From: Verrucomicrobiaceae bacterium
GTDB taxonomy: Bacteria > Verrucomicrobiota > Verrucomicrobiia > Verrucomicrobiales > Verrucomicrobiaceae
DNA: 64,000 nt
Assembly (NCBI GenBank): GCA_947458455.1
Contig: CANGYJ010000008.1
Span: 248,001-312,000, forward strand
Direction: 5' to 3'
The translations under genes and the position numbers were made by a program. Numbering within the stretch: the first letter of the stretch is position 1; every line of letters starts with the position of its first letter. Shown piece after piece: positions 34,279 to 58,530 of the stretch. The notes below the pieces were generated by a model. The model worked only from the letters and a program-made list of their open reading frames with translations. It did not search any database and was not told where the DNA came from.

Positions 34279-35580
34279 ATGAAACGACTTCTTCTCCTCT
34301 CACTCGCCTTCATCGCCACCACCCACGCCCAAACCGTGGACTACACGAAGCAGATCACTCCGCTCTTCGACACCTACTGCATCGACTGCCACAGCGCGGA
34401 CGACGCGGATGGGGAGTTCGCGTTGGACACCTTCGCGGCGCTCATGAAGGGCGGCGAGGAAGGCGCGGCCATCGTGGCGGGGAAGGCGGACGAGTCGCTG
34501 CTGGTGAAGTTTCTCGAAGGGCGCTCGGGTCGCGGTGGGAAGAATGAATTCATGCCGCCGGGCAAGCGCGAGAAGCTGAAGGCGGAAGAGATCGCGCTCA
34601 TCAAGGCATGGATCAACGCGGGTGCGAAAGGCCCGCTCGTCACGGAGGCGAAACCGATGCCCAAAGAGGTCATCACACCAAAAATCGCACCGACGGTGCC
34701 GCCGAAGCGCTCGATCCAGGCGGTGGCGTTTTCGCCGAAGGTGCAATTCGTCGCGGTGGGACGTTACGGAGAGGTGGAACTCGTCAATCCGGTCAATCAA
34801 GTCACCGTTCGGAAACTCACTGGCTTCACGGGCAAGGTGAACGCGGTCGTCTTCTCGCCCGATGGCGAAACGGTCTATGCCGCCGGTGGAGAGGCGGGCA
34901 TCGTGGGTATCGTGCGGAGCTGGAAAACGGGTGATGGCACGGCGCTACGCTCATTTGAAGGTCACACCGATGCCGCGTATGCGCTCGCGGTTTCGCCGGA
35001 TGGCAAATGGATTGCCACGGGAGCCTACGATCAAAAAATCCGCCTTTGGGACACCGCGACGGGCAAAGAGATCGCTTTGCTAAAAGGCCACAACGGCGCG
35101 GTGAACGGCCTCTCGTTCCGCCCCGATGGCAAGGTGCTCGCCAGCGCCAGCGCGGACCGCACGGTGAAGCTGTGGAGCATCCCGACAGGCCAGCGACTCG
35201 ACACGCTCTCGCAGCCGACGAAAGAGCAGACGAGCGTCGTCTTCAGTGCCGATGGGAAAACGCTCTTCGCCGCCGGTGGCGACAACCGCATCCGCGTGTG
35301 GGCGATCAGCGCCGCGGCGAAGGAAGGCACGAACAAAATCCTCACCAGCCGCTTCGCGCATGAAGGCGGCATCTTGAATCTCGCGCTCTCCGCCGATGGC
35401 AAACGGCTCGCCTCGACCGCGACGGACAAAACGCTCAAACTCTGGAACACCGCCGACCTCACCGAAAAACTCCTCCTCGAAAAACAACCCGACTGGTCCT
35501 CCGCCCTCGCCTTCACCGACAAAGCGCAACTCATCGCAGGTCGCGTCGATGGCACCTGGAGCGTGTATGAGCCTCGCTGA
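34279..35580 (+). CDS. Secreted planctomycete-type cytochrome c plus WD40 repeat protein
   Basis: 433 residues from the ATG at 34279 (signal peptide MKRLLLLSLAFIATTHAQ). N-terminal heme domain (about residues 20-125): FDTYCIDCHSADDADG with a CxxCH site, and a MPPGKREKL segment providing a possible methionine ligand, as in PSCyt1 domains. Residues 145-433 form WD40 repeats, for example SFEGHTDAAYALAVSPDGKWIATGAYDQKIRLWD and LKGHNGAVNGLSFRPDGKVLASASADRTVKLWS. It probably acts outside the cytoplasm. The next gene starts 14 bases after the stop, so the two are co-transcribed. Confidence 0.92.
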   Translation: MKRLLLLSLAFIATTHAQTVDYTKQITPLFDTYCIDCHSADDADGEFALDTFAALMKGGEEGAAIVAGKADESLLVKFLEGRSGRGGKNEFMPPGKREKLKAEEIALIKAWINAGAKGPLVTEAKPMPKEVITPKIAPTVPPKRSIQAVAFSPKVQFVAVGRYGEVELVNPVNQVTVRKLTGFTGKVNAVVFSPDGETVYAAGGEAGIVGIVRSWKTGDGTALRSFEGHTDAAYALAVSPDGKWIATGAYDQKIRLWDTATGKEIALLKGHNGAVNGLSFRPDGKVLASASADRTVKLWSIPTGQRLDTLSQPTKEQTSVVFSADGKTLFAAGGDNRIRVWAISAAAKEGTNKILTSRFAHEGGILNLALSADGKRLASTATDKTLKLWNTADLTEKLLLEKQPDWSSALAFTDKAQLIAGRVDGTWSVYEPR

Positions 35581-35593
35581 ACCTTTGACTGCC

Positions 35594-38014
35594 ATGAAAT
35601 CCCTCTTTCCCGTTCTTGTCCTCCTGCTCGGCCTTTCGTCCGCTGAGGCTCAAAAGGCCCCCAAACCCAAAAAAGCCGACGCAGTCGCCAAAATGGCCAC
35701 AAAGTCCGCCAAACCGACGCTCACGAGCGTTTCGCCGCGTGGGCTGCATCTCGGTGCGGAGCAGGTTTTCAGCCTCGCGGGCAAAGATTTGGCCGGTGCG
35801 ACTGTTTTGACCTCACACAAGGATTTGAAGCCCGTCATCGATGCGGCGGCGAGCACGGCCACGAAGCTCGTTTTCAAGCTCCAATCACCCGCAACGCTCG
35901 GTCGCAGCAGTCACGACGTTTGGGTGAAAACGGCGGGCGGCGAGTCAGCCAAGCTCAAACTCTATGCCGACGATCTCGCGCCCATCACCACCACGGCGGC
36001 GGATTTCAAAAACGGCCCGGTGCAGATCGCCCAGCTCCCCGCGAGCGTGTGGGGCACGCTCACCGAGACGGGCCAGCATGACGCCTATCGTTTCACCGCA
36101 AAGGCAGGCGAGGAACTCGTGCTCGATCTCGCCGTGGCGCAGGTCGGCAGCGCGGCAAAATCGCCCACGCTCGAAATCGTGGATGCGAACCGCAACGTGC
36201 TCGTCGTGAATCGCGGCCTCGACAGCGGCAGCGATCCCTTCCTCGCGTGGAAAGCGCCTGCGGATGGCGATTACCACGTCCTCGTCAGCAACACGACGAT
36301 GGATGGCAGTGACGGTCATGCGTATCGCCTCACCATCGGTGCTTTGCCGTATGTCACCGCTTGGACGCCGCTCACCGCGCAGCTTGTTCAAGAGACGAAA
36401 GTCACGCTCATCGGCCATCACCTCGGCGACAAGGCCACGGTGACGATGAAAGCGGACAAGGAAGGCATGGCAAACGTACCACTCGATGCCAAAGCGCTGC
36501 GTTTTCGCACGATGCCCTCGTTGCGCGTGAGTGCGCTGGCGCAGGTCAGCGAGGTGGAGGGGAATGATGACCTCGCGAAGGCGCAGGTGGTGATTTTGCC
36601 GGTGAATGTGAGCGCAGCGCTTCGTAGAACGAGTTTTCCAACTCGTTCAGGTTTCGGCACGGCGGGGAACGAGTTGGAAAACTCGTTCTACGACACCGAT
36701 CACTTCGCCTTCGATGCCAAAAAAGGCCAAACGTGGATCATCGAGGCCACCGCCGCTCAAGCCGGCTCGCCCGCCGATACGAAGCTCGAAGTCCTCCACA
36801 CCGATGGCAAACCCGTCGCCCGTTTGCTCATGCAGGCCGTGCGCGACAGCTACAACAACTTCCGCAGCGTCGATGCCAACAACCCGGACATCCGCCTACA
36901 AAATTGGGAGGAGATGGAGCTCAATGAGTATGTCTGGTTCAACGGCGATGTGATGAAGATCATCCGCATGCCACGCGGGCCGGACGGCGGCTGCTTCTTC
37001 TACATCAACGATGGCAAACGCCGCGCTTACTTCGACACCAGCGCCACCTCGCACTCGCTCGACGAGCCCTGCTACGTCGTGCAGCCCTATCCGCTCGGCA
37101 GCAGCATCGCCGCGAATGGCCTTCCCATTTTCACCGTGAACTATCAAAACGACGACAGCGGCGACCGTAAAATCGGCCGCGACTCGCGCCTGACCTTCAC
37201 CGCGCCTGCCGATGGCCGTTTCGTCGTCAAAGTCACCGACACGCGCGGCTGGGGCGGCGAGCGCTTTGTCTATTCACTCGCCATCCGCGAGCCGAAGCCC
37301 GACTTCAGCGTCAAACTCGCCGGCATGAATCCCACCGTGATGCCCGGAGCCTCCGTGGGCTTCTCCTTCCGCGCCGAGCGCACGGACAATTTCGACGATC
37401 CCATCCAGATCGACATCACCGGCCTGCCACCGGGTTTTTTCGCCTCCTCGCCTCTCCTTATTGAAGCCGGTCACGATTTGATCAGCGGCTCACTCCGCGC
37501 CGCACCCGATGCCAAAGCGGAGGCGGATTGGAGCAAGCTCAAGATCACCGCGAAGGGCAAAGGCATCACGCACGACGCCGGAACCTTCGGCAAGGTCACG
37601 CTAGGTGCCACGCCGAAGTTCATCATCGTCATGGAGCCCGACAACGGCGGCAGAGCCGTCATGCGTGAGATCAAAGACGAGACCCAGCCGCTCGAAATCA
37701 CCCTCGTCCCCGGCCAGACCGTCAAAGCCTGGATACGCGCCGTCCGCCAGGGCAACGACGGCCTCATCAACCTCGACGTGCACGGCCTTCCGCACGGCGT
37801 CATCATCGATGACATCGGCCTCAACGGCGTGCAGATCCGCGAGAAGGAAAACGAGCGCCCCATCTTCATCCGCGCCGCGAACTGGGTGAAGGACCAAGAG
37901 AAACTCATCCACGCCGCCCTCAGCTCCGCCCGCAACGAGCACGACAGCGCCGCCCTTCAAACGAGCTTCCCGATCCTCATGAAGATCCGCAAGCCCGGCG
38001 TCGCGGCGAGGTGA
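35594..38014 (+). CDS. Secreted PPC-domain protein with in-frame palindromic insertion
   Basis: 806 residues from the ATG at 35594 (signal peptide MKSLFPVLVLLLGLSSAEAQ). Bacterial Ig-like TIG segment near residues 45-115 (LTSVSPRGLHLGAEQVFSLAGKDL), then pre-peptidase C-terminal (PPC) domains, recognisable by GTLTETGQHDAYRFTAKAGEELVLDL and ADGDYHVLVSNT, and again after residue 365 (DTDHFAFDAKKGQTWIIEATAAQ) and near 530 (TFTAPADGRFVVKVTD). At residues about 343-366 a palindromic DNA element adds RRTSFPTRSGFGTAGNELEN between two segments that read as one PPC domain. Such proteins often follow a heme/WD40 gene in PVC bacteria; the role is unknown. Confidence 0.88.
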   Translation: MKSLFPVLVLLLGLSSAEAQKAPKPKKADAVAKMATKSAKPTLTSVSPRGLHLGAEQVFSLAGKDLAGATVLTSHKDLKPVIDAAASTATKLVFKLQSPATLGRSSHDVWVKTAGGESAKLKLYADDLAPITTTAADFKNGPVQIAQLPASVWGTLTETGQHDAYRFTAKAGEELVLDLAVAQVGSAAKSPTLEIVDANRNVLVVNRGLDSGSDPFLAWKAPADGDYHVLVSNTTMDGSDGHAYRLTIGALPYVTAWTPLTAQLVQETKVTLIGHHLGDKATVTMKADKEGMANVPLDAKALRFRTMPSLRVSALAQVSEVEGNDDLAKAQVVILPVNVSAALRRTSFPTRSGFGTAGNELENSFYDTDHFAFDAKKGQTWIIEATAAQAGSPADTKLEVLHTDGKPVARLLMQAVRDSYNNFRSVDANNPDIRLQNWEEMELNEYVWFNGDVMKIIRMPRGPDGGCFFYINDGKRRAYFDTSATSHSLDEPCYVVQPYPLGSSIAANGLPIFTVNYQNDDSGDRKIGRDSRLTFTAPADGRFVVKVTDTRGWGGERFVYSLAIREPKPDFSVKLAGMNPTVMPGASVGFSFRAERTDNFDDPIQIDITGLPPGFFASSPLLIEAGHDLISGSLRAAPDAKAEADWSKLKITAKGKGITHDAGTFGKVTLGATPKFIIVMEPDNGGRAVMREIKDETQPLEITLVPGQTVKAWIRAVRQGNDGLINLDVHGLPHGVIIDDIGLNGVQIREKENERPIFIRAANWVKDQEKLIHAALSSARNEHDSAALQTSFPILMKIRKPGVAAR
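36624..36691. repeat. GTAG/CTAC palindromic element inside the PPC-domain gene
   Basis: 68 bases from GTAG (36624) to CTAC (36691). The outer 25-base arms are perfect inverted repeats, each being a hairpin built on AACGAG...CTCGTT. The reading frame stays open through it and the protein resumes family similarity on both sides. The same arm words occur at 54152 and 58127. Confidence 0.9.
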
Positions 38015-53659: not shown

Positions 53660-53722
53660 GTAGATTCGATTGGCCATCGAATCGCTTTGGAACGTTCGGC
53701 TTCGAGTGCCACTCGAAGCTAC
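53660..53722. repeat. GTAG/CTAC two-hairpin element; provides the stop of the giant heme gene
   Basis: GTAG at 53660 and CTAC at 53719. Hairpins: GATTCGAT-TGGCC-ATCGAATC and GCTTCGAGTG-C-CACTCGAAGC. The minus-strand stop TAG of the 1603-residue gene (53719-53721) is part of the CTAC end, read in reverse as GTAG. Confidence 0.9.
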
Positions 53723-56700
53723 TTCTTCTCCAGCCTCACATAATCCAGCCCCACCATGTTCGACGGCACGGCGTCGGGATTCGGCGGAGCTAGCGTGAAG
53801 GTGAGCTTGTGCTCGCCAGCGGTGAGTTCATGCGTGCCCCACTCTTTTTCGCCGGTGTGGATGACTTTGGGGCCGTTGTAGCCATCGAAGCTCGACGCCA
53901 CCGGCTTACCATCCAGCGTGATGCTCGTCACGCCGTAGTCGCGGGCCATGGTGAGAGCGCCGTAAAGCGTGTACTTGCCCGCTTCCTTCACTGAAAGGGC
54001 GAGCGTGAGCTTTTGATCGGACTTGCCGCCGGTCCACCAGAGCTGTGCGCCGCCGCTCCAGTCGCTGCCGAAGCCGCCCATGCCTTGTGGCTTGGCTTTT
54101 CCGCCGGTGATTTCGAGGACTTTGAGGAATTCGCCTTCGAGGGCGCCGGGCGTAGAACGAGTTTTCGAACTCGTTCCGCCAGACTGGAAAGTCCGGCCTA
54201 CGTTTCCACTCTGCAAATACTTCACGAGATCGACCACCATCTCCGGCTGCAAAGCATCAAAAAGCCCCTCGGGCATCGTGCTGAGCTTCGAGACCTCGCG
54301 TTTCGCGATGTCCGCCTGCGGCAGCGTGAACTCCACGCCGCCCATCATGGCGATCTTCACGGCCGCTGGGTTTTCCTCTTTGATGACGCCGCTCATGACG
54401 CGGCCGTCCTTCATGGTGAACAAATTGAGCTGGTAGGCCTTGCCGATGACCGCGTTCGGATCGAGCACGTTTTCGAGCAGGTAGTTCAAATCGGCGCGAT
54501 TGCTGCCGGTGATGTCGGGACCGACGTTTTGACCTTCACCGAAGAGCTTGTGGCATTGGCCGCAAGTGGCCATGTAGAGAATCTTGCCCTTCGCGAGATC
54601 ACCTTTCGCCAATGCAGCCGGCGTGAGCAGCGTTTTGTATTTTTTCGTCCGCTCACCGAGATCGGCTTTTGGCGCGTTGACATCTCCCCAGGCTGATTTG
54701 ATCAAAGCGTTGATCTCCGCGTCGCCGAAGGCAGAGAGCTGTCGCACCAAAAACGGCGACAAAGCCGTCACGCGCACGGTTTTGGCCTCCACGGCCTTCA
54801 AGAGCGTTTTCGAGCCTTCTTTGGTCGAGGCGAGTGTGTTGACCGCATCGGGCAATTCGTTCGCGGAGAGCTTTGGAAGGGCCGCGCCGAGGATTTGGGG
54901 CGTTTCAGCGTCTTTGAGCGAGGCGAGAGCCTGGATGGCCTGTCGGCGAAGGGAGGCCGGTGAATCGTTGGAGACGATCGTGAGCAGGATTTTGGCCGTC
55001 GCGGCATCCTTGGCCTGCAACAGCACCTTCAAGGCGCTTTCACGCGCCGATGGGTTTGCGGTCGCGAGGGAGAGTTGATCGCGGAAGTGCTTCAGAGCAT
55101 CCGCTTCACCAAACAGGGCGCTGAGTTCTCGAACGAGGTTTGTAGTTCGGGCTTTAGCCCGTTCATGCTCTTCCGGACGACCTAAAGGCCGAACTACAAG
55201 CAGCGCTTTCGCGATCTGGGACCAGTTTTCGGGCATGGTCGCTACGCCGCCATTTCGCACAGCGGCCAGGATCATCCCAAGCGTGGCCTCTCGCTTCGGC
55301 GGGTCGTTTTCCTTCACTAGCGCCGCGAGCACCGCGCCGCGTCCCACCTCCTCGCCCGCCAGGCGGCGATAGATGAACTCCGTGACCTTCGGCATCTTCG
55401 ACACCGCCGAGAGCTGCAACCCCACCGCCGCATCCGCCGCCACCACCGGCTCGATGCCATACCAGATCAGCAGCGGGATCATCGGGTCTTCCGCGTCTTC
55501 GCCGTGCTTGAGGAGGGCGGTGGCGAGGGGTTGGCGTTGGTCGATGGGAAGACGCTGAAGCGCGGAGGCATATGCAGACCTCACCTGAGGACTAGATTCC
55601 TTTGCTCCCGAAATCGCGACCCAACGTCCAAATAGTTCGGGATATGAACCGGCAAGTCGAAGCGCTGTCCGTCGAACTTCTGGGAACGAAGAATCCACGG
55701 CGAAGCCAACAGCTTTTGGAGCTCCAGCGCTGGCCATTGCCCACAGGGCTCGTTGGATTGTAGCCACGGACCGCTCACCGCCGTCACCTTCAAATATCTT
55801 GGCTAAAGCTGGATCCACTTTGTTAATATCTTTCAGCGGAGACCGTTCTGTGAGCACCCGCCTCGCCATGCGTGAAAACCACTCGTTCTTCGTCTGCACA
55901 GCGAGTTTGGCGAGGGTTTCATCGCTTTCCTTGGCGAGGTCGAAGGGGGCAGTGAAGCGGGCACTCTTGCCCGCAAAGTCGAAGCGGGCAGGAGTGCCCG
56001 CTTCACTTCCATACGTCACCCGATAAATCCTCCCATTACTCCGATCCCAATGCTCCACCGCTCCACTGCCGCGATGGCAGATTTGCTGATCGGACCAATC
56101 ACTCACATACAACGCGCCATCCGGGCCGACCTTCTGTGTGACGGGGATGAAGTGCATGTCGTTCGCTCGCAGGAAGTCGGCGGCGTGTTTGCCGATGTAG
56201 GTGCTGGCGTGCGGGTCGGTGTAGTTCGCGACGAGGCGATGGCCGTGGAGGTTGCCGAAGAGGAGCTGGTTGCGATACGTCGGCGGGAAGAGGCTGCTCT
56301 GATAAATGGCGAGGCCGCAGTGCGCGTGACCGCCGCCGAGCGCATTCGTGTCGTTGTTCATCACGCCTGCGCCGGTCGTTTTGTCGAAGCTGACATCGGG
56401 TCGCGGATTGCCGGCGTAGTGCGCGTGGTCGGCGATGGTCTTGATGTCCTCGTAGGTGTGCGCGTTGAAGTGCTGCCCGGCCTGCCGTTGATAACGCCCG
56501 CCGGGGACGATGTGGTAGAGATGCGGAATGACGCACGCGGTGACGAACCACTCGCCATGCTGGTCGTAATCGAGCCCCCACGGGTTGCTGGTGCCATGCG
56601 CGAAGACCTCAAACTCATGCCGCACGGGATGGTAACGCCACACACCGGCATTGATCGGCTCGCGCTGGGCATCCGGCGTACCCGGTTTGCCAACGCGGCT

Positions 56701-58530
56701 GTGCGTGAAGACGCCATGACAGCCATACAGCCAGCCGTCCGGGCCCCAGATGAAGCTGTTGAGCGTTTCGTGCGTGTCTTGGCTGCCCCAGCCGTCGAGG
56801 AGGGCATAGGCGGTGAAGTTGAGGCCGGGGACTTTCGGGCGCTGATCGGTCGGATCAGACGGATCGGGCTGATCATTCCGATCCTTGTCTGGAATGAACA
56901 TCAAATACGGCGCTGCCCCCACCCACACACCACCGAAGCCGAGTTCGATGGCGCTGACGAGGTTCAGGCCTTCGCAGAAGATTTTTTTCGTCTCGAAGGT
57001 GCCGTCGCCGTCTTTGTCTTCGAGGATCTTGATGCGGTCCTGGCCTTTGCCGACTTCGCGGGGCTGCGGGTAGCTGTTGCCTTCCACGACCCAGATGCGG
57101 CCGCGTTCGTCAAAGGTGAAGGCCATCGGCTGCACAAGGTCCGGCTCCGCGGCGATGAGTTCGGCTTTGAAGCCGGCGGGGAGCTGGATGGACTTCAGCG
57201 CATTCTGCGCGGACTGACCTTTGGCGTATTCGGCCTGCGGCTTCAAAGCGGAGCCGTAGAGTTTCTTCGGCGTGAGGTCGGCGGTGGTGTCCTTCCGCTC
57301 CTGCGTGAGGATATAAACACCCGCTTTGTTGCCGACGACGATGTCGGGCAGCGTGTCGCCGTTCACATCTCCGACCTGCACATCGACACCGACGCCGCTT
57401 TCGGCATCGACGAGATGCGGGACGAAATCGACGCCCCCCTTGCCATCGCGCTTCGTTTGATACCAGTAGATGACGCGGTGGCCACGCTCGTCGGGGTCGT
57501 GGCCGTTGTGCGCCCAGTAGCGCTTGCCGGTGACGATGTCTTTGATGCCATCGCCGTCGATGTCGGCGAGAAAGGCGGCGTGCGGCTGGGAGAAGACGAT
57601 GCCGTAGTCGTTGTCCTGCGGCTGCTCGCTGGCGAGCATGATGCGGTTCCAATGTGGTACAGCCGTCCCGTCTGCATCTTTGTTCTGCAAATACACCGCC
57701 ACGCCGTAGCGATGCGCGGCCAATGAGGTGAAGACGTCGCTGGTACCATTGCCATCGAAGTCATAGGCGAACATCTGCGCCCCACCGCCGACACCGGCAG
57801 CGAAGTTGTGCTGGATGAAGTTCTTGGTTCCTGGTTCTTCGTTCTTCGTTGGATTCTCCCACCAGCGCCGAGCCTCCAGCAAATCCATCTTCCCATCGCC
57901 ATTCACATCGCCGACGCCGAGGCCGTGGGTGAATTTGGCGACCTTCATGTCATCCGTGACGGCGACGAAGGGCCATTTCTCGGTCGGTTTGTCCCAGTTC
58001 GGGGCGAACCAGCCAAACCGGCCTGCCGTGCTGCACACGATCTCCGGTTTGCCGTCGCCAGTGATGTCAGTGAAGACGGGCGATTCATTATCCACCACAT
58101 CGGCGACGAGGTGCATGGGCCAATATGTAGAACGAGTTTTCGAACTCGTTTCCTCCGAGCCAACGGACTGGAAAGTCCGTTCTACGTTGTTCAGATACAG
58201 CCGCGCTTCCTTGCCGGGGAAGCCGAGGATGAGGATGTCATTCCGTTTGTCCGCATCGAAATCATGGACGTAGGCGAAGAAGTTGTCCGAATAGCCATGG
58301 AGGCTGAAAATCTTCGGTTCGTAGTAGGCGTGTTTATTTTCAAACGCCGGACCTTCCCACCAGAACGGGCCGGCGACGATGTCAGGTTTGCCGTCGCCAT
58401 TGATGTCGCCGATGGCGGCACCTTCGGAATAGAAGTCGCCGTGAAGCTGCTGGCGCTTCCAGGTGATCTGGGTCTCGGCGAAGAGATTCACCACAGAGAA
58501 GGCACAGAGGAGCACAGAGAGGGTTTTCAT
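53719..58530 (-). CDS. Giant secreted FG-GAP / beta-propeller / HEAT / heme / CBM-like protein
   Basis: 1603 residues from the ATG at 58530 (signal peptide MKTLSVLLCAFSVVNLFAE). Order: FG-GAP/VCBS repeats (about 20-430, e.g. GDINGDGKPDIVAG, ADIDGDGIKDIVTG); a PVC-type glucose/sorbosone dehydrogenase-like propeller (about 450-840, LPAGFKAELIAAEPDLVQPM); HEAT-like helices (about 870-1310); a heme domain with ATCGQCHKLFGEGQNVGPD; a C-terminal beta domain (about 1470-1603, KYTLYGALTMARDYG). Four palindromic DNA elements interrupt it in frame (residues about 115-134, 841-860, 1111-1129, 1443-1459). It probably works outside the cytoplasm in oxidising sugars or alcohols; no substrate is known. Confidence 0.9.
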   Translation of the reverse strand: MKTLSVLLCAFSVVNLFAETQITWKRQQLHGDFYSEGAAIGDINGDGKPDIVAGPFWWEGPAFENKHAYYEPKIFSLHGYSDNFFAYVHDFDADKRNDILILGFPGKEARLYLNNVERTFQSVGSEETSSKTRSTYWPMHLVADVVDNESPVFTDITGDGKPEIVCSTAGRFGWFAPNWDKPTEKWPFVAVTDDMKVAKFTHGLGVGDVNGDGKMDLLEARRWWENPTKNEEPGTKNFIQHNFAAGVGGGAQMFAYDFDGNGTSDVFTSLAAHRYGVAVYLQNKDADGTAVPHWNRIMLASEQPQDNDYGIVFSQPHAAFLADIDGDGIKDIVTGKRYWAHNGHDPDERGHRVIYWYQTKRDGKGGVDFVPHLVDAESGVGVDVQVGDVNGDTLPDIVVGNKAGVYILTQERKDTTADLTPKKLYGSALKPQAEYAKGQSAQNALKSIQLPAGFKAELIAAEPDLVQPMAFTFDERGRIWVVEGNSYPQPREVGKGQDRIKILEDKDGDGTFETKKIFCEGLNLVSAIELGFGGVWVGAAPYLMFIPDKDRNDQPDPSDPTDQRPKVPGLNFTAYALLDGWGSQDTHETLNSFIWGPDGWLYGCHGVFTHSRVGKPGTPDAQREPINAGVWRYHPVRHEFEVFAHGTSNPWGLDYDQHGEWFVTACVIPHLYHIVPGGRYQRQAGQHFNAHTYEDIKTIADHAHYAGNPRPDVSFDKTTGAGVMNNDTNALGGGHAHCGLAIYQSSLFPPTYRNQLLFGNLHGHRLVANYTDPHASTYIGKHAADFLRANDMHFIPVTQKVGPDGALYVSDWSDQQICHRGSGAVEHWDRSNGRIYRVTYGSEAGTPARFDFAGKSARFTAPFDLAKESDETLAKLAVQTKNEWFSRMARRVLTERSPLKDINKVDPALAKIFEGDGGERSVATIQRALWAMASAGAPKAVGFAVDSSFPEVRRTALRLAGSYPELFGRWVAISGAKESSPQVRSAYASALQRLPIDQRQPLATALLKHGEDAEDPMIPLLIWYGIEPVVAADAAVGLQLSAVSKMPKVTEFIYRRLAGEEVGRGAVLAALVKENDPPKREATLGMILAAVRNGGVATMPENWSQIAKALLVVRPLGRPEEHERAKARTTNLVRELSALFGEADALKHFRDQLSLATANPSARESALKVLLQAKDAATAKILLTIVSNDSPASLRRQAIQALASLKDAETPQILGAALPKLSANELPDAVNTLASTKEGSKTLLKAVEAKTVRVTALSPFLVRQLSAFGDAEINALIKSAWGDVNAPKADLGERTKKYKTLLTPAALAKGDLAKGKILYMATCGQCHKLFGEGQNVGPDITGSNRADLNYLLENVLDPNAVIGKAYQLNLFTMKDGRVMSGVIKEENPAAVKIAMMGGVEFTLPQADIAKREVSKLSTMPEGLFDALQPEMVVDLVKYLQSGNVGRTFQSGGTSSKTRSTPGALEGEFLKVLEITGGKAKPQGMGGFGSDWSGGAQLWWTGGKSDQKLTLALSVKEAGKYTLYGALTMARDYGVTSITLDGKPVASSFDGYNGPKVIHTGEKEWGTHELTAGEHKLTFTLAPPNPDAVPSNMVGLDYVRLEKK
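54152..54201. repeat. GTAG/CTAC element within the giant gene (linker before the CBM-like domain)
   Basis: 50 bases from GTAG to CTAC. First hairpin on AACGAG-TTTTCG-AACTCGTT, second around GGAC/GTCC. In the protein it adds GRTFQSGGTSSKTRSTP between the heme domain and the C-terminal domain. The frame remains open. Confidence 0.88.
55142..55197. repeat. GTAG/CTAC element within the HEAT region of the giant gene
   Basis: 56 bases from GTAG (55142) to CTAC (55194). Hairpins: TTCGGGCT-TTAGCCC and the GGCC/CGACC arm pair near 55180. The minus frame reads VVRPLGRPEEHERAKARTT through it. Another arm family than the AACGAG elements. Confidence 0.85.
55951..56007. repeat. Palindromic element AGTGAAGCGGGC within the giant gene
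   Basis: 57 bases. The ends AGTGAAGCGGGC and GCCCGCTTCACT are inverted repeats, and the full 24-base arms match in 23 positions. The frame reads GSEAGTPARFDFAGKSARF. No GTAG end, so this is a separate family. It lies between the propeller and HEAT parts. Confidence 0.87.
57818..57851 (-). repeat. AAGAACC-type micro-repeat within the giant gene
   Basis: On the minus strand the DNA reads AACGAAGAACGAAGAACC, then AGGAACCAAGAAC, encoding NEEPGTKN in a loop between FG-GAP repeats. It shares the AAGAACC unit with 46986-47019. Confidence 0.55.
58127..58185. repeat. GTAG/CTAC element near the start of the giant gene
   Basis: 59 bases from GTAG (58127) to CTAC (58182). Outer ends GTAGAAC and GTTCTAC are inverted. 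First hairpin AACGAG-TTTTCG-AACTCGTT, second GGAC-TGGAAA-GTCC with its flanks. The frame reads ERTFQSVGSEETSSKTRST. Its arms match those at 54152 and 36624. Confidence 0.9.

Follow-up and report, generated by a model that had tools for sequence, protein, structure and literature searches.

In a REPIN, two REPs face each other in inverted orientation across a short spacer; matching REPs flank RAYT genes, and elements of this type have been described mainly as extragenic. Here we ask how several such elements came to lie, and to persist, inside the reading frame of a single gene in a Verrucomicrobiaceae genome. The window that we analysed, a stretch of 64,000 nucleotides, contains a gene for a protein of 1603 residues in which elements 1–4 (Table 1) are intragenic. 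A previous sequence-only reading of this DNA had concluded that the genome tolerates or uses REP insertion to lengthen protein linkers.

That reading had described four palindromic elements from three families, each with two hairpins and all leaving the frame open. Folding and translation confirm the two hairpins and the open frame for elements 1–4, and all four positions were correct. The DNA folding z-scores are -4.4, -5.3, -9.7 and -4.3 for elements 1, 2, 3 and 4, respectively, and for each of them none of 200 dinucleotide shuffles folded equally well. Each element is an inverted REP pair with a short spacer, has a length of 50–59 bp and ends in GTAG or GTGA. Elements 1, 2 and 4, together with a fifth element at the 3' end of the gene, have GTAG...CTAC ends; element 3 stands outside the GTAG class because its ends are AGTGA...TCACT. 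An exact 24-nt hairpin is common to elements 1 and 4. The TAG stop codon of the gene (53719–53721) comes from the terminal GTAG of the fifth element, of which no further copies were found in a 464-kb scan, each hairpin core being present once. The degenerate half-REP of family D is the sole plus-strand match to its family at ≤3 mismatches in the window. The fifth element and the half-REP had been overlooked before, as had an in-frame REPIN at 36624–36691 in a second ORF of the window.

Table 1. Features of the gene and its surroundings (positions in the window)
Feature	Position	Strand	Basis or description
Gene for 1603-residue protein, probably secreted	53719..58530	-	Pfam and NCBIfam matches, translation, models
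Element 1: REPIN, family A (GTAG-AACGAGTT)	54152..54201		Encodes NVGRTFQSGGTSSKTRST, between heme and C-terminal domains
Element 2: REPIN, commonest of the three families (GTAG-TTCGGGC)	55142..55197		Encodes LVVRPLGRPEEHERAKARTT, HEAT region
Element 3: REPIN, family B (AGTGA-GCGGGCACTC)	55951..56007		Encodes SEAGTPARFDFAGKSARFT, between propeller and HEAT
Element 4: REPIN, family A	58127..58185		Encodes VERTFQSVGSEETSSKTRST, loop of N-terminal propeller
Fifth REPIN-like element (GTAG...CTAC, two hairpins)	53660..53722		Gene 3' end, fold z -5.2
Degenerate half-REP, family D (TGTGGT-), in frame	57653..57675		Joint near residue 285, 2 mismatches
Hypervariable HEAT cassette, residues 897–984	55579..55842	-	Ortholog comparison, pairwise identity, dS
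Variable block, residues 838–894, with element 3 and linked F/E residue (NEWFSRM/NEWESRM)	55849..56019	-	
Second variable block, residues 1060–1149, with element 2	55084..55353	-	

The count of three families is also right: at ≤3 mismatches, the genome contains 39 half-sites of the family of elements 1 and 4, 77 of element 2's family and 61 of element 3's, compared to none for reversed control patterns. These half-sites group into 126 dispersed REP clusters. Chance palindromes are thus ruled out by the folding shuffles and the multi-copy families. Furthermore, a RAYT-type ORF flanked by matching REPs was found for each family (family A at locus L010, family B at L008, element 2's family at L245). 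Three further RAYT-type ORFs are flanked by REPs of family C (L009), family D (L011) and the GCGGGCACTC/GCGGACAC variant (L007); in this survey, the choice of ORF at L005 and L006 is doubtful. The best NCBIfam match of all six ORFs is the REP-associated tyrosine transposase (REP_Tyr_transpos), with scores of 60.6–74.4 bits that lie below the curated cut-off of 80, and the ORF at L245 reaches 16.2 for Pfam Y1_Tnp, below the cut-off of 23. Presumably, RAYT (Y1/HUH) transposases move these REPINs.

The gene itself is intact. The minus-strand ORF is free of stops over 1603 residues, where the ATG at 58530 was taken as the start codon (the mechanical ORF opens 57 nt further upstream), and the N-terminus, judged by eye, resembles a signal peptide. 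The protein comprises an FG-GAP propeller, a DUF7133/TIGR02604 region, HEAT repeats, a CxxCH heme domain (TIGR02603) and a C-terminal beta domain. With 404.8 bits for TIGR02604 (curated cut-off 122.2) and 138.3 bits for TIGR02603 (cut-off 68.15), it belongs to the PVC-type heme-binding CxxCH proteins. Very little literature was found on DUF7133, PVC-type heme-binding or TIGR02604 proteins. In the comparison with L045, dN/dS is 0.04–0.15 in five of seven segments and 0.40 in one short segment, and it is not computable for the cassette segment. The ORFs are open and the dN/dS of the core is low, so that a pseudogene, an outcome that would have spoken against the sequence-only reading, is unsupported. 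In one of six gene neighbourhoods fetched (G016, L144), a partial C-terminal copy (residues 1265–1603) without the cassette lies downstream of the gene.

When aligning homologs, as the earlier reading had proposed, we found that the empty form is the majority at two sites. Site 4 is empty in 36 of 42 orthologs and filled in six, with at least six changes on the core tree; it is also empty in the nearest relative, a partial sequence outside this count. Site 3 is empty in 28 of 43 orthologs and carries an insert in 15, with at least eight changes, or at least 14 when insert types are distinguished by the analyst's labels, a count that overstates insertions because many state changes are probably block exchanges. 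Among the orthologs listed, one other shares the insert at site 1 and one other that at site 2: family A occurs at element 1's joint only in L015 and L060, and element 2 is shared only with L075. L015 and L075 both contain element 2, yet this block is just 58–76% identical between them. The presumed movement of the REPINs would show here as presence or absence among relatives.

Some joints have been filled more than once. Site 4 of L048 is occupied by a different REP pair, the joint at residue 285 contains at least three types of palindrome across orthologs while other orthologs are short there, and the joint at residue 560 has some inserts that are repeats of another sort. Re-use of joints is likewise seen in a second gene, which contains three REPINs. 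Insert DNA reached a fold z-score of -3 or lower in 28 of 79 cases (51 failed), compared to eight of 158 control windows. A peptide that is conserved and merely looks palindromic is unsupported; orthologs are as a rule empty at the site or differ in sequence, and linker peptides conserved without the palindrome, which the earlier reading had named as evidence against itself, were not seen among the orthologs listed.

The sequence-only reading had also suggested a scan for REPs in ORFs. Scanning for GTAG...CTAC pairs by fold energy gave a weak signal (24 pairs compared to 19 in shuffles; at a cut-off of -0.22, five compared to 1.3), and a strict scan for stems ≥8 gave 106 hairpins compared to 66 in a Markov shuffle. 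A scan for tagged dimers yielded 39 hits compared to 3.7 expected at a score ≥14; as it misses elements 1 and 2 and the short-stemmed family of element 2, we recounted by REP family. In the sample, the three families form 37 clusters, of which 20 lie in genes, three at gene edges and 14 between genes. Intragenic copies thus exist, but REPINs are 6- to 9-fold rarer per base in coding DNA, and those within genes are concentrated in DUF7133 genes and at one joint of PSD1 proteins. A general tolerance of this genome for REP insertion is therefore not what we find.

The 1603-residue gene holds four of 18 confident intragenic clusters compared to 0.08 expected by length. The sample contains 13 DUF7133 genes, which make up about 3.6% of the sampled coding DNA (3.2% without the 1603-residue gene). 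Leaving this gene out, the dimer scan places 6/12 intragenic elements in DUF7133 genes (P ~8e-7 by length; 4/10 when counted by gene, P ~2e-4) and the family scan 5/14 (P ~5e-5; 4/13 by gene, P ~6e-4). PSD1/DUF1553, representing 0.75% of the genome, accounts for 13 of the 126 REP clusters, at one joint in 13 paralogs (P ~2e-11). Both the DUF7133 and the PSD1 enrichment were noticed and tested in the same data. For PSD1, 55 of 60 hits were used and 40 of these were fetched (13 with a REP and 27 without, among which L219, L238 and L241 were uninformative in the comparison of translations). The REP-bearing paralogs are diverged and interspersed with empty ones.

In addition to its REPINs, the gene contains a HEAT cassette of 88 residues; species with flanks of at least 95% identity have versions of it that are unrelated to each other. 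As blastp clustering (E<0.001) chained 39 of 50 cassettes into one group via weak HEAT-like matches, we relied on pairwise identities and dS. In some pairs the cassette is younger than its flanks and was thus exchanged. L019 and L031 (cassette identity 0.86) give no sign of recent exchange, since dS in the cassette is no lower than in the flanks, and the identities of pairs with L070 are inflated because L070 is without most of the cassette. The block of site 3 also differs abruptly between relatives, with FPxAPF and NEWF flanking the site in filled taxa and GWKPWKG and NEWE in empty ones. Such blocks may have moved by homologous recombination; no silent donor cassettes were found near the gene in six neighbourhoods fetched. 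The chances seem about even that the gene is a diversity locus, in which cassettes are swapped wholesale and diversifying selection acts on an exposed segment used for recognition; REPIN joints may then be the seams of block exchange. Under this reading, some cassette versions recur in other lineages by exchange, at times with the upstream REPIN linker, and candidate recognition targets are phage, grazer, self-recognition or a substrate.

We consider it very probable that REPINs were inserted into coding DNA, were kept as linkers at tolerant joints that have been refilled, and that the gene is in addition a mosaic. REPINs are inverted pairs of REP hairpins of about 50–70 bp; they would be non-autonomous and presumably moved by RAYTs. 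Those that insert into coding sequence would persist only if they keep the frame, avoid stops and land at a tolerant joint. Translation of a persisting element would then give a linker that is hydrophilic and probably disordered. Large PVC-type proteins such as DUF7133 and PSD1 proteins may offer tolerant joints, so that in orthologs and paralogs alike different REP families refill the same joints. In the mosaic gene, close relatives differ abruptly in the HEAT cassette and in blocks with their REPIN states, which would have been exchanged in some pairs.

Alternatively, only few insertions might have occurred per joint and been copied later among species and paralogs by recombination or gene conversion, which is possible, if doubtful. 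This would fit the block differences at site 3 with their linked flanking residues, and the position and frame shared by PSD1 inserts of the same family. However, unrelated REP families at one joint require at least one insertion each, the PSD1 paralogs with the same family are diverged from each other, and the spacers between hairpins vary from copy to copy.

It is also conceivable, although we think it unlikely, that the RAYT picks a short DNA motif that lies in the joints and that tolerance of the protein is secondary. PSD1 insertions of family A begin directly after GTAT in four of seven cases and those of element 2's family after TTC, TTT or CTC in six of six; each family has a single orientation and frame in the first half of the PSD1 insert. 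Starts after such motifs could also stem from conversion between the paralogs. Motifs this short must be common, yet all 13 insertions start 244–288 nt into the domain, within 45 nt of one another. Furthermore, two families occupy the same PSD1 joint at slightly different bases. Across 16 elements, the frames used are more hydrophilic than the other open frames (P 0.003), which again argues against a choice made by DNA alone. We thus favour tolerance of the protein as the probable cause of the choice of joints.

About four of six frames are open in the intragenic elements that we examined, which would help REPINs through the coding filter. The earlier proposal that REP insertions lengthen linkers at domain joints is supported by the empty orthologous sites and by rough structure models. 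In these models, elements 1 (segment 1014–1029), 3 and 4 fall in segments with pLDDT<50 and element 2, in the HEAT region, is part of a helix-loop-helix, so that three of the four inserts may lie in disordered linkers. Element 4 is the only long segment with pLDDT<50 of a confident propeller model; for the others the agreement is weak, because the larger model has a pLDDT below 50 at 287 of its 1174 residues. The inserts had been called Arg/Ser/Thr-rich, which is the case for elements 1 and 4 but not for elements 2 and 3. The hydrophilic bias and the repeated occupation of the same joints might also reflect a selected use, where longer hydrophilic linkers or the DNA or RNA hairpins themselves benefit the cell. 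This appears improbable: most orthologs manage without a given insert, and the purging of harmful insertions would equally yield frame bias and choice of joints. It is extremely improbable that the inserts are ordinary variable linkers in which palindromes arose by chance, or that they are an artefact of assembly or of a pseudogene: linkers evolve fast and most compared genomes are metagenome-assembled, but the fold z-scores, the multi-copy families with zero control matches, the intact ORFs with low core dN/dS and the named strain Brevifollis gellanilyticus NBRC 108608 (L060), in which sites 1, 3 and 4 have inserts of family A as well, all stand against it.

REPINs that persist in coding sequence resemble known REPIN/RAYT systems in their inverted REP pairs and in the matching REPs around RAYT-type ORFs, and differ from them in lying inside reading frames. 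Coding palindromes had been taken to be known mainly from Rickettsia, which overlooks a survey that describes GTAG and CGTC REPs inside genes of several species (PMC3733652, 2013). These include the verrucomicrobium Opitutus terrae, described there as having the most intragenic GTAG repeats. As in that account, we observed GTAG hairpins and inverted dimers in ORFs, genes that are hit more than once and GTAG ends that supply TAG stop codons. The survey stresses DNA-repair genes and describes two Xanthomonas species in which recB has different REPs at nearly the same position, whereas we find one joint re-used by several families across many orthologs and paralogs, and a concentration in DUF7133 and PSD1 genes. 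Beyond what it describes, we measured frame bias and orthologous empty sites. Rickettsia palindromic elements likewise lie in frame inside protein genes; they are described as about 150 bp long (PMC10969869) or, for RPE-4 and RPE-6, as short CGTC-type repeats (via PMC3733652). The elements found here do not belong to them, being 50–70 bp long, ending in GTAG or GTGA and having matching RAYT-type ORFs. For the host protein, the closest described case is Lac161_ORF7 from Verrucomicrobia, whose purified protein hydrolyses lactose (PMC5342196). It shares the architecture of TIGR02604, HEAT_2 and CxxCH; that description lists these three domains without FG-GAP and contains neither REPs nor a variable cassette.

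In-frame REPs as a kind are therefore known, from Rickettsia and from the survey of GTAG-REPs that includes Opitutus. As far as we searched, the literature contains nothing that combines REPINs inserted in open reading frames with Opitutus, and nothing on hypervariable, recombining heme-binding proteins in Verrucomicrobia. To that extent, it is new that different REP families re-use the same joints across orthologs and paralogs, and so is a HEAT segment of 88 residues whose versions in different species are unrelated and which has been exchanged in some pairs.

REPs in genes represent a natural insertion experiment, which reveals the joints that accept about 17–25 residues from several families, and in which frame. 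Whether linkers of large multidomain proteins regularly evolve from selfish DNA thereby becomes testable. The swapped cassette nearby points to a diversifying, little-studied protein of Verrucomicrobia.

The four palindromic elements that the sequence-only reading had placed in the main gene (minus strand, 53719-58530) are correctly positioned. All four are in frame within an uninterrupted 1603-residue ORF, and each folds far better than its own shuffles. The source genome comprises 28 contigs and 5.35 Mb at 96% completeness. Searching with the protein, the nearest named records found carry the labels Prosthecobacter, Brevifollis and Verrucomicrobiaceae, and we therefore assign the genome to that family. 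Pfam and NCBIfam profiles detect FG-GAP repeats, DUF7133/TIGR02604, HEAT repeats and a CxxCH heme domain. Compared with the homolog L045, dN/dS is 0.04-0.15 in five of seven segments and 0.40 in the short segment 1000-1060, while it was not computable for the segment at HEAT residues 897-984 (the cassette). Outside its variable parts, the gene evolves under purifying selection.

The elements are REPINs (pairs of inverted REP hairpins) from multi-copy families. With up to three mismatches allowed, the genome-wide half-site counts were 39 for family A, 77 for element 2's family, 61 for family B and zero for the reversed control patterns of the three families. Family A (at most one mismatch) has a patchy distribution, being present in 9 of 24 genomes of the genus. 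A Pfam search yielded 12 Y1_Tnp matches, five of them REP-flanked ORFs; a sixth REP-flanked ORF (L245) lies below the Pfam cut-off and was missed by that search. The top NCBIfam match of all six is the REP-associated tyrosine transposase (RAYT), at 60.6-74.4 bits, below the curated cut-off of 80. Finding the RAYT-type locus of element 2's family (L245) slightly raised our confidence in the main explanation: REPINs very probably inserted into coding DNA and persist at tolerant joints as translated linkers. In-frame REPs are already described in PMC3733652, and PMC10969869 provides the in-frame precedent of the Rickettsia RPEs.

Elements in and at the main gene, and RAYT-type ORFs with their flanking REPs (C and D are further REP families)
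Feature	Position	Description
Element 1	54152-54201	family A
Element 2	55142-55197	family GTAG-TTCGGGC
Element 3	55951-56007	family B
Element 4	58127-58185	family A
Fifth REPIN-like element	53660-53722	last bases are the TAG stop codon of the main gene
Half-REP, fourth family	57653-57675	in frame within the main gene
RAYT-type ORF L010		family A
RAYT-type ORF L008		family B
RAYT-type ORF L009		family C
RAYT-type ORF L011		family D
RAYT-type ORF L007		GCGGGCACTC/GCGGACAC variant
RAYT-type ORF L245:543-1319	G000:C2:337943-338719 (approx.)	element 2's family, 3 before and 2 after

Orthologs were drawn from relatives and named public genomes, and the alignment contains 52 distinct proteins after 11 identical pairs were merged and L036, L042, L043, L044, L076 and L083 were excluded as partial or paralogous. 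From the counts at sites 3 and 4 (the joints holding elements 3 and 4), we dropped L032, L033 and L035 (partial copies of L060, L072 and L064, respectively) and four outgroups, and at site 4 additionally L067. Comparison with homologs lacking the inserts supported the proposed insertions: site 4 is empty in 36 of 42 orthologs and filled in 6, and site 3 is empty in 28 of 43 and filled in 15. In the nearest relative, which stands outside these counts, site 4 is empty and the contig stops before site 3. The filled forms at the two sites are not one single insert. Of the six inserts at site 4, five belong to family A (one a half element) and the sixth, in L048, is another hairpin pair; at site 3 several unrelated palindromes occur. 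The filling of the residue-285 joint also varies by ortholog (family B, GAGCGCGGGCACTC type or GTAGAGCAAGCC type). Insert DNA from the whole alignment folds unusually well, with z<=-3 in 28 of 79 inserts compared to 8 of 158 control windows; these 79 of 117 inserts leave out 38 that are N-terminal, in the cassette region or from outgroups, and count the three partial copies alongside the full versions. Our searches of the open-licence literature turned up no description of joints being re-used by orthologs and paralogs, nor of hypervariability of the HEAT cassette 897-984.

Other repeats were observed in these proteins. The residue-560 joint (e.g. in L022, L024, L046 and L070) carries further in-frame repeats (GTCAAGG, AGATAGA, GGACTGAAGG, AAAATCCAAAATC), some inverted, and L070 has a 117-residue insert of mostly tandem SGEPSxR repeats near residue 1075 in the HEAT region. 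At about residues 430-445, L031, L033, L034, L045, L072 and L080 contain GC-rich multi-hairpin inserts, a palindrome class distinct from REPINs. In one genome, a partial copy of residues 1265-1603 (L144:12373-13395, 89% identical) lies about 4.7 kb downstream of the ortholog and resembles an orphan C-terminal module.

In a set of 16 intragenic elements, roughly four of the six frames are free of stops. The frame actually used exceeds a random open frame in hydrophilicity (mean GRAVY -0.86 vs -0.43, P 0.003) and is the most hydrophilic of all in 8 of the 16. In the model of the N-terminal propeller (pLDDT 82, pTM 0.85), the sole long segment with pLDDT<50, fragment residues 99-114, lies inside the site-4 insert. 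In the model of residues 430-1603, the segments with elements 1 and 3 have low confidence and element 2 forms part of a helix-loop-helix, which is only a hint because this model is poor (pLDDT 66, pTM 0.47, 287 of 1174 residues <50).

The suggestion that this genome tolerates REP insertion is not supported as a general property; REPINs are depleted in genes. We sampled 1.262 Mb, including the window, which had been chosen for its REPs, and called genes with our own hexamer gene finder (88.5% coding). A tagged-dimer scan gave 39 rows (37 merged) compared to 3.7 expected; 17 of the merged elements are intragenic, 18 intergenic and 2 at edges, a density per base about nine-fold lower in genes. 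A second tally, the three-family count, which also catches element 2's family, gave 37 clusters (20 in genes, 18 of them confident, 3 at edges and 14 intergenic), a density about 6.5-fold lower in genes. DUF7133 genes hold 8 of the 14 intragenic dimer-scan elements retained after three of 17 were dropped for a poor coding score on one flank, and 9 of the 18 confident clusters. Without the main gene, their share is 6/12 elements (P ~8e-7) and 4/10 genes (P ~2e-4) in the dimer scan, and 5/14 (P ~5e-5) and 4/13 genes (P ~6e-4) in the three-family count. Nine REPIN genes (not L089) were typed with Pfam: four encode DUF7133 proteins, three PSD1 or PSCyt2 proteins, one a beta-helix protein and one a PPC protein. 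ORF 35396-38014 (872 aa, PPC domain) contains, in frame, a near-perfect family A REPIN (window 36624-36691).

PSD1 (DUF1553) domain matches make up 0.75% of the genome and hold 13 of 126 genome-wide three-family clusters (family A in 7, element 2's family in 6). All 13 start 244-288 nt into the domain, in 13 of the 55 matches analysed. When 40 of these matches were aligned (three misframed rows disregarded), the joint followed an MSxTYRQSS-like motif, and REP-free paralogs had an ordinary short loop at that position. REP-filled paralogs are diverged and interspersed with empty ones on the tree. Within each family, all elements share one orientation and one first-half frame, and the insertion point is nearly identical; therefore, this pattern may owe something to a transposase preference at the DNA level or to conversion among the paralogs.

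The cassette is unrelated between close orthologs. Among 38 region-spanning orthologs, 34 pairs have flanks at least 95% identical; cassette identity is <0.35 in 32 of these pairs and >0.8 in two, with a median of 0.24 compared to a shuffled-sequence mean of 0.21. Between L029 and L052, DNA identity in 15-codon windows is 91-100% at 700-834, 50-77% at 835-894, 14-51% at 895-984 and 90-100% from 985 to about 1240. For L021/L050, dS is 0.05 in the cassette, 0.53 before it, only 0.17 in the adjoining 1000-1060 and 0.52 at 1241-1440; for L048/L081, the values are 0.13, 0.67, 0.31 and 0.70. L027 and L052 have a flank identity of 0.68, yet share a common cassette at 0.55. Such low cassette dS and this common cassette indicate that cassettes have passed from one lineage to another.

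The upstream block with element 3 covaries with the cassette; it reads NEWF in 13 of 15 filled taxa and NEWE in 26 of 28 empty ones, with at least eight changes on the tree. L015 and L045 also show an abrupt difference in another block, 1060-1149, which contains element 2. Furthermore, a 1242-aa DUF7133 gene (L142:6925-10650; G000:C2:486925-490650) contains three in-frame REPINs of three types; in its orthologs these joints are occupied by other inserts, and the HEAT region is again of low identity. In the nearest relative (L036/L076, genome G014), one contig ends at about residue 824, immediately ahead of the variable block, and the sequence resumes on another contig at about 1007; strain polymorphism could be the cause.

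In PMC5342196, beta-galactosidase activity was measured for a verrucomicrobial protein that shares this core architecture, which suggests a role in sugar use. Our guess is that the cassette is a recognition segment under diversifying selection.
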